Shown here piece by piece: positions 1,457-2,089 of a stretch of 11,046 nt of DNA (position 1 is its first letter; every line of letters starts with the position of its first letter). Origin of the DNA: an uncultured Sphingomonadales bacterium (GTDB lineage: Bacteria > Pseudomonadota > Alphaproteobacteria > Sphingomonadales > Sphingomonadaceae); NCBI GenBank assembly GCA_903893935.1, contig CAITOD010000392.1:1-11046 (forward strand), given 5' to 3'. The notes beneath the pieces are model-generated. The model saw only the letters and a program-made list of their open reading frames with translations. It searched no databases and was not told the origin of the DNA. The position numbers were made by a program, and so were the translations under genes.

Positions 1457-1720
1457 TCAGCGTCTTTTGCGCTGTGGCCCGGGTCCGCTGCCGCCGCCGG
1501 GGCCTTTGTCCCGGAACACGATGCGACCCTTTTGCAGATCGTAGGGGGTCATTTCGACGCGGACCCTGTCGCCCACGACCGACCGGATGCGAAATTTGCG
1601 CATCTTGCCAGCCGTGTAGGCGATGATCCGATGGTCGTTTTCGAGCATGACGCCGAAACGGCCATCGGGCAGGATTTCGTCGATCTGGCCTTCGAGGGTC
1701 AAAAGCTCCTCTTTGGCCAT
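1457..1720 (-). CDS. infA: Translation initiation factor IF-1 paralogue with basic C-terminal tail
   Basis: IF-1 binds the A site of the 30S ribosomal subunit and helps IF-2 and IF-3 select the start codon. The protein is a single S1-type OB fold: it begins [11 protein letters not shown] and carries the IF-1 hallmarks [11 protein letters not shown] (about residues 36-46) and [18 protein letters not shown] (about 55-72). It is 87 residues against the usual 72; the extra part is a Gly/Pro-rich tail ending QRKRR, likely flexible and RNA-binding. The start is certain from family alignment. The csp stop codon (TGA 1727-1725) is four nt before this ATG and the local Shine-Dalgarno is poor, so translation is probably coupled to csp. 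Many alphaproteobacteria also carry a standard 72-residue infA elsewhere; if so here, this copy would be the accessory one. Confidence 0.93.
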
Positions 1721-1724
1721 GCGA

Positions 1725-1931
1725 TCAGACCGCTTCGATGTTGACGGCTGCGGTCTTGCCCCGGCGATCGGTTTCGAGTTCGTACTTCAGACGCTGATCC
1801 TTGAGCAGCGTGCGAAGCCCGGCGCGTTCGACCGCGCTGATGTGGACAAAATTGTCAGGGGTGCCATCATCGGGCGCGATAAAGCCATAACCCTTGTCGG
1901 CATTGAAAAATTTTACGGTGCCTACTGGCAT
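1725..1931 (-). CDS. Cold-shock-domain protein (CspA family, 68 aa)
   Basis: This is a single-domain RNA/ssDNA-binding protein of the CspA family, thought to melt RNA secondary structure and act as an RNA chaperone in the cytoplasm. The cold-shock domain fills the whole length: N-terminal [15 protein letters not shown] contains RNP1 (KGYGFI, residues 13-18), and NFVHIS is RNP2 (about 28-33). The tryptophan usual in KWFN is Phe here. The reading frame is open 13 codons further upstream, but the ATG at 1931 matches the family N-terminus and has AAGGA eight nt upstream. It is translationally linked to infA, with the stop four nt before the infA ATG. It has a leader of roughly 115 nt with marked secondary structure (see the element at 1935-2007), which points to post-transcriptional control. 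Confidence 0.95.
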
Positions 1932-1934
1932 GAT

Positions 1935-2007
1935 CCGGATCCTTACACAGGCAGAATGGTCTGCGGACAAAGGTGCCCGCAGAGCGAAGAGTCGTGATAA
2001 GGATCGG
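1935..2007 (-). promoter_or_regulatory. Structured csp leader: helix sequestering the Shine-Dalgarno around an inner hairpin
   Basis: On the transcribed minus strand, CCGATCCTTATCAC (2007-1994) can pair with GTGTAAGGATCCGG (1948-1935). The match is 8 contiguous base pairs (GATCCTTA with TAAGGATC), then CAC/GTG and CC/GG across single bulges, 13 pairs in all. The 3' arm contains the whole AAGGA ribosome-binding site of csp and ends four nt before the ATG. The 45-nt loop encloses a second hairpin at 1983-1960: TCTGCGGGCA, loop CCTT, TGTCCGCAGA, which is 10 bp with one G-U pair. Such nested structure over a Shine-Dalgarno is what RNA thermometers and autoregulated leaders look like. The pairing is seen directly; the function is inferred. 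Confidence 0.6.
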
Positions 2008-2037
2008 AAGGCGAAGGAGCCGAAAGTCCAGTCTCAG

Positions 2038-2089
2038 GCGACGTTAGCCCCACAGACATAGGCGCTCTGTCGCCGAATTGCAACGTCGC
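2038..2089. repeat. Inverted repeat flanking the presumed csp promoter
   Basis: GCGACGTT (2038-2045) and AACGTCGC (2082-2089) are perfect 8-nt inverted copies 36 nt apart. They bracket the candidate -10 hexamer, and the upstream copy overlaps the last two bases of the -35 hexamer. They could be paired operator half-sites for a dimeric regulator or chance in GC-rich DNA. Confidence 0.3.
2055..2083 (-). promoter_or_regulatory. Candidate housekeeping promoter for csp-infA
   Basis: On the minus strand TTGCAA (2083-2078) and TATGTC (2060-2055) are separated by exactly 17 nt, a plausible alphaproteobacterial sigma-70 pair. Transcription would begin near 2047, giving a leader of about 115 nt before the csp ATG, which matches the long 5' UTRs usual for cspA-type genes. 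Both hexamers are imperfect, so this is a candidate only. Confidence 0.35.

Follow-up and report, generated by a model that had tools for sequence, protein, structure and literature searches.

A candidate family of cis-regulatory leader RNAs upstream of csp and second infA genes in Sphingomonadales

How is a cold-induced gene translated when the pairing that locks its Shine-Dalgarno (SD) sequence becomes tighter in the cold? To our knowledge, this paradox has been worked out mainly for Escherichia coli cspA. The question is raised here by a csp gene in the window, that is, in the whole 11,046-nucleotide stretch of Sphingomonadales DNA that was analyzed. The gene (minus strand, 1725..1931, ATG at 1931) encodes a 68-amino-acid cold-shock domain protein (Pfam CSD, E 5.9e-19), and it is followed after 4 nt on the same strand by infA2 (1457..1720), which encodes an 87-amino-acid paralogue of initiation factor IF1 with a basic tail (TIGR00008, 91.3 bits against a cutoff of 61.15). 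Two further minus-strand frames lie beyond infA2. A 51-codon frame at 1412-1257 ends in ...SPVLSRHELRQVIRDMVD, with similar endings behind infA2 in loci L128, L130, and L168, and is possibly a small conserved operon protein; a 98-amino-acid frame at 937-1233 resembles frames near csp-infA in several relatives and had no Pfam or NCBIfam match.

A promoter profile of relatives was anchored on a 5'-terminal hairpin (P1) and built from 95 csp and 9 infA regions, with identical sequences removed and near-duplicates kept. Its -35-like element, TTGACTTTT, begins at about -39 and its -10-like element, CCATAT or CCTATAT, at about -18, both blurred by small shifts. In the window, the putative promoter (minus strand, 2055..2083) consists of TTGCAA at 2083-2078, a 17-nt spacer, and TATGTC at 2060-2055; it is a weak match that received no call in a consensus scan, and its position agrees with the profile. 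Judging from this position, the csp transcript probably starts near 2049-2045, so the upstream arm of the SD-locking helix described below would be transcribed. In the family the promoter is followed by P1 at the RNA start, a variable hairpin P2, an anti-SD strand, a hairpin P4, and the SD strand. P1 is near-invariant in relatives (consensus CGTCG-CCTG-CGACG) and is decayed in the window, where 2030..2043 (minus) reads CGTCGCCTGAGACT instead of CGTCGCCTGCGACG. P2 is a small GGC/GCC hairpin in the predicted fold (2010..2021, minus).

A preliminary description of this DNA had proposed that the SD of csp can be locked in a long helix around a separate 10-bp hairpin. The pairs themselves, the minimum-energy fold, and shuffled controls confirm this. 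The helix, P3, joins an anti-SD arm, CCGATCCTTATCAC (minus strand, 2007-1994), to GTGTAAGGATCCGG (1948-1935), which holds the SD core AAGGA at 1944-1940, and the two arms are separated by 45 nt. Eight contiguous pairs, GATCCTTA/TAAGGATC, are extended by CAC/GTG and CC/GG. The enclosed hairpin P4 (minus strand, 1960..1983) is TCTGCGGGCA-CCTT-TGTCCGCAGA, in which 1983-1974 pair with 1969-1960 through ten pairs, including one G-U, around a CCUU loop in the RNA. Both helices are present in the minimum-energy fold of 2060-1910 (-52.3 kcal/mol, z = -2.49), which was equalled or bettered by 2 of 200 shuffles. The modelled cost of opening the SD at 37 C is 10.1 kcal/mol. When everything upstream of the last 30 nt was dinucleotide-shuffled, 2 of 500 sequences came to this cost; among 34 other predicted genes with an SD on the fetched loci, none did.

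The leader belongs to a family that extends well beyond the window. A Csp protein scan of named species genomes returned at least 468 relatives, and among the best 80 of these, which were kept, 73 bear sphingomonad names. Contig identity with named records points to Novosphingobium, in a wide sense, as the probable genus of the window. A strict P1 pattern occurs in 58 of the 79 of those best 80 that have enough upstream sequence; the pattern misses the window itself, and the remaining 21 include L032 and L033, which are closely related to the window and share its decayed P1. Two homologous classes of leader were distinguished: class A, to which the window belongs (Csp mostly beginning MPxGTVKFF; 42 aligned), and class C (mostly MITGTVKFF; 30 aligned). 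From these, models R1 (class A) and R2 (class C) were built. At E 0.01 or better, R1 matches 48 and R2 32 of 246 genomes of the order, and each model reaches members of the other class, some of the weak rows being chance. Across 60 loci matched by R1 or R2, duplicates included, the csp start lies at the end of the model in 55. The window scores 79.5 bits with R1 (2047-1926) and has the P1, P3, and P4 layout ending at the start codon; being one of the 42 sequences from which R1 was built, it matches by construction. Across Sphingomonadaceae, csp leaders repeat both the SD lock and its inner hairpin. A scan with each model of 289 genomes drawn from the whole class left no credible match beyond the order: R1 gave four matches besides the window's own genome and R2 two, and these six loci were taken as chance because tblastn found neither csp nor infA there. 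The R2 match L158 was likewise rejected as chance.

Other csp leaders were noted alongside this family. One type is rich in GGCCGGGGCCGGAC-like repeats and ends in CAAGGAACTAC before the ATG (L053, L055, L062, L064, L069, L073, L075, L077, and L106). Class B leaders (L015-L020, L024, L192, L218, and L219) have a CCTTTC- or TTCCTT-like strand complementary to the SD 50 to 80 nt upstream, and the same kind of strand occurs in the csp leaders of L049, L071, L111, L092, and L110, the last two Hyphomonadaceae by title. The theme of an SD-complementary leader may be wider than classes A and C.

The strength of the SD lock differs between the classes. In class A the median opening cost is 5.9 kcal/mol against 3.4 in the 34 control genes (P = 1.3e-6), and the SD-lock reading is well supported for these leaders. 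The class C median, 2.7 kcal/mol, is not above that of the 34 control genes (P = 0.42). A different line of evidence comes from covariation, assessed by tree-based simulation in a test written after the R-scape idea. For P4, none of 400 simulations reached the observed helix score in either class, on MAFFT or model-fitted alignments. For P3 in class C the result was 0 of 400 on the model-fitted alignment, where slid controls reached at most 8.4 against 59.1, and 29 of 400 when the alignment was unfitted. In class A, P3 showed no significant covariation, with 86 and 103 of 400 simulations reaching the observed score on two alignments; there the helix is conserved without significant covariation. 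P4 has accumulated many compensatory changes. P1 varies too little for this kind of testing. Over the whole class A structure, a pair counter found 91.2% of cells paired, compared with 42 to 50% when the structure was slid, and none of 500 shuffles equalled it. RNAalifold by itself did not show P3. When the two arms of 100 leaders were duplexed, cognate arms averaged -15.9 kcal/mol and permuted arms -13.8 (lowest of 10,000 permutations, -14.8). The same comparison, run on 130 leaders with the SD core masked, gave no significant difference (5,821 of 20,000 overall and 1,021 of 20,000 within classes), so the unmasked signal rests on the SD region.

A locked SD calls for an alternative fold, and the preliminary description had pointed to CTCCTT and GCCTTCC further upstream as competing strands. 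An alternative probably exists, but the competitor found is a different one: a local hairpin, P5, which uses the same SD arm as P3. In the window it is weak and spans 1934..1955 (minus strand), where 1955-1949 pair with 1943-1941 and 1937-1934. The class A form, (G)UUUUC-GUGAAA-GGAAAC, has a weak A-U and G-U stem that also pairs part of the SD, and the class C form, AUGGG-ACAAAGGAUA-CCCAU, holds the SD in its loop. Cognate halves of P5 fold better than permuted halves (0 of 20,000 in class A, n = 59; 8 of 20,000 in class C, n = 38), also after thinning to 65% identity (25 of 20,000, n = 25, and 97 of 20,000, n = 24, respectively). Column-wise, tree-aware tests were weaker (29 of 400 for class A and 131 of 400 for class C on fitted alignments; 59 of 400 for class A unfitted). 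Overall, this competing fold is moderately supported.

The balance between the two folds was expressed as the difference in energy when one or the other pairing was forbidden. By this measure the upstream fold is favored by about 2 to 3 kcal/mol at 37 to 45 C, with medians at 45 C of about +2.8 kcal/mol (class A) and +2.3 (class C), and at that temperature 59 of the 61 class A leaders and 34 of the 38 class C leaders prefer it. After shuffling of the upstream parts the preference passes to the local fold, at -0.8 kcal/mol in both classes. The window leans much further towards the upstream fold, by 7.4 kcal/mol at 37 C. In these models the upstream fold and P5 look tuned against each other. Folding with enforced P3 or P5 pairs was discarded, being unreliable in class A, whose fitted register does not suit the window. 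Attenuation was also rejected as a general mechanism: a U-run follows P4 in some class A leaders and is absent in the window and in class C. No terminator-like site was called in 1200-2400 of the window.

How temperature acts on this balance bears directly on the paradox. In nearest-neighbor folding the SD stays closed throughout 5 to 55 C, and more tightly in the cold: the class A median opening cost is 8.4 kcal/mol at 5 C, 5.9 at 37 C, and 4.5 at 55 C, and the window SD still costs 7.35 kcal/mol at 55 C. The preference of class C for the upstream fold drops on cooling, from 34 of 38 leaders at 45 C to 22 of 38 at 5 C; the accompanying shift is no larger than in shuffled controls (medians -1.23 versus -1.1). 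In class A there is almost no shift (+0.1, against -1.93 after shuffling). The equilibrium models showed no specific opening of the SD by cold beyond the controls; a cold switch, if real, must be kinetic or protein assisted. The trigger would be cold trapping, or remodelling by Csp or a helicase. An RNA thermometer or Csp-controlled switch had been suggested at this site; the SD lock on which that suggestion drew is present, but equilibrium folding by itself leaves the SD locked over the whole range from 5 to 55 C.

The heat-shock thermometers ROSE and fourU pair the SD in a stem near the start codon. The present leader shares this feature and differs from them in its long-range helix around a separate hairpin, its competing local hairpin, and its place on csp and IF1 genes. 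The cold box of E. coli cspA is UGACGUACAGA, and class C leaders start with GCUGACGUCGC; in both, the element stands at the 5' end of the RNA. Like the cspA thermoregulator, the window leader is an SD-hiding fold in front of a cold-shock-domain gene. It is unlike cspA in being built as a long-range helix around one hairpin, in a form common to infA2 and DUF6481 genes. A further likeness is a csp leader of more than 100 nt with two folds, one that hides the SD and one that places it in a loop or in weak helices (PMC9947658). In that account, cspA RNA made in the cold has its SD in a large loop and weak helices, the SD is hidden when the RNA is made at 37 C, and CspA helps translation of the SD-hidden form (PMC9947658). 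For IF1, PMC6511841 reports that the protein rises after cold shock in E. coli, with infA mRNA stabilized and preferentially translated, and that E. coli infA is monocistronic with two promoters. Here, in contrast, a second IF1 gene sits in the csp operon or directly under the same leader.

In Rfam 15, no model matched this Sphingomonadales leader family at a passing score. The model of the cspA thermoregulator, RF01766, did not match the window at up to E 5, and the leader is thus not a member by that measure; in 16 related loci only L070 (24.7 bits) and L051 (24.1 bits) matched, against a gathering score of 78 for a model of 428 positions that also spans coding sequence. An Rfam scan of the window up to E 5 returned only four chance-level matches, none of them a thermometer. 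A search of the open PMC literature at listing level, a depth that leaves absence unproven, recognized nothing on this leader or on a sphingomonad csp-infA operon, and papers on candidate RNAs searched in PMC for csp and infA terms yielded none.

The preliminary description had taken infA to be coupled to csp. The leader is indeed tied to infA, since it occurs directly on infA paralogues and at infA loci that no longer have csp, but the infA of the window is a second IF1 gene and not the canonical one. The same genome has another infA on contig C682, 65% identical, and one csp match, at an assembly completeness of 82%. A tree of 67 IF1 sequences splits ten of canonical type from the 57 others with a support of 0.913; L199, among the 57, looks canonical by eye. 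Among 18 infA2 loci from a sample of 147 genomes, csp lies directly upstream in 8, a P1 leader stands 125 to 135 nt upstream without csp in 5, and 5 have neither csp nor a P1 leader by the pattern used (L192 has a mismatched P1 and a stop in infA2). In three genomes csp has been lost between the leader and infA2: in L128 and L130 an 11-codon frame behind an intact leader (94.7 and 93.1 bits) is all that remains of it, with its end 3 nt ahead of infA2, and in L252 no csp was found between the leader (81.5 bits) and infA2. Fifteen further R1 matches that were fetched lie before csp (12) or infA2 (3); among these 3, L223 matches in part and marks the place already known as L168. DUF6481 genes follow the promoter and P1 in L237 and L245 (E 2.4e-12 and 1.3e-12), and L237 has a whole class C leader (R2, 80.9 bits, E 1.3e-18; L245, 33.1 bits). 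The presence of the leader before csp, infA2, and DUF6481 means that it goes with several genes and is not merely the 5' end of csp, and its presence on both csp and infA2 suggests that it probably sets the translation strength of both.

P1 as the mark of a large regulon was rejected. In a place search covering 41 genomes, in which counts refer to loci read among the places found, the 14 loci read with no or one mismatch comprised 10 csp, 2 infA2 with csp lost, 1 further infA2, and 1 DUF6481, and the two read with two mismatches were 1 DUF6481 and 1 without a gene in reach. Several observations concern infA itself. The regions upstream of canonical infA in L196, L200, L201, L202, L203, and L205 share a CTTCCCTTTTG/C-like stretch, unlike the infA2 leader. 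Only a single infA match was found in each of genomes G157 and G145 (genus g32) and G129 (genus g28); the tree assigns it to the infA2 type, and infA2 may have replaced canonical infA there. The infA2 copies in L125, L192, and L139 look frame-shifted or stopped.

Four other explanations were weighed. Constitutive autoregulation by protein, in which Csp or another RNA-binding protein acts on the anti-SD strand or P1 without temperature sensing by the RNA, would fit the pyrimidine-rich anti-SD arm of the aligned leaders, the near-invariance of the P1 sequence beyond the needs of base pairing, and the binding of E. coli CspA to its own mRNA, where it aids translation of the closed form (PMC9947658). 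Since the leader is kept on infA2 and DUF6481 without csp in cis, such control would have to act in trans, and we consider it unlikely. A heat-opened thermometer, with P3 and P5 melting on warming and more csp-infA2 translation when warm, as in ROSE and fourU, is distinctly more doubtful. The modelled opening cost does fall with warming, and the UUUUC/GGAAA stem of class A P5 is reminiscent of fourU. Yet the window remains closed at 55 C by the cost given above, no Rfam thermometer matched it up to E 5, and in E. coli both Csp and IF1 belong to the cold-shock products (PMC6511841, PMC9947658).

The two remaining explanations deny the SD lock a leading part. If P1 worked on the DNA as an operator, with its inverted repeat directly behind the start site and control exerted on transcription, P3 and P4 would be minor or would serve mRNA stability. 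An invariant palindrome whose spacing from the promoter is fixed, together with P1 pattern matches that led to csp, infA2, and DUF6481 genes, would suit such an operator; covariation of P4 as RNA, a class A SD lock exceeding that of controls, and a palindrome that is broken in the window all speak against it, making it very unlikely. Least credible of all, to the point that we give it hardly any weight, is a passive G+C-rich leader that covers its SD by chance without a regulatory role. The missing covariation of class A P3, the null result of the masked cognate test, and class C SDs no more locked than control genes are what such a leader would give. It sits poorly with a lock in class A and the window that is stronger than in controls and shuffles, with the covariation of P4, with models from separate classes that find each other's members, and with a leader that stays where csp is lost.

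We favor a two-state translational switch that is cspA-like in logic and lies outside the cspA family. It is, in our view, somewhat more probable than not that the csp leader belongs to a so far undescribed family of Sphingomonadales cis-regulatory RNAs and governs the translation of both csp and the infA2 behind it. In such a switch, the promoter would set P1 at the 5' end of the mRNA. P3, the long-range pairing of SD and anti-SD around P4, would be the OFF state, and P5, the same SD strand folded locally, would be the ON or easily opened state. The balance between them would be set during RNA synthesis in the cold, when rearrangement to P3 would be slow, and could also be shifted by RNA remodellers such as Csp itself. 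Ribosomes starting on csp would reach infA2 by coupling, and a single switch would supply Csp and extra IF1 after chilling.

More tentatively, the leader may be a portable cold-shock RNA device of Sphingomonadales, distinct from cspA and bistable at the SD, that stands before csp, duplicated IF1, and DUF6481 genes and raises an RNA chaperone and a second initiation factor together in the cold; where the csp frame has been lost in some lineages, the device would drive the IF1 paralogue alone. As a family of its own, with P3 and P5 readable from the sequences of its many natural variants, it would allow the switch to be dissected by comparison of species. The second IF1 gene under the leader suggests a dedicated cold-shock initiation factor.
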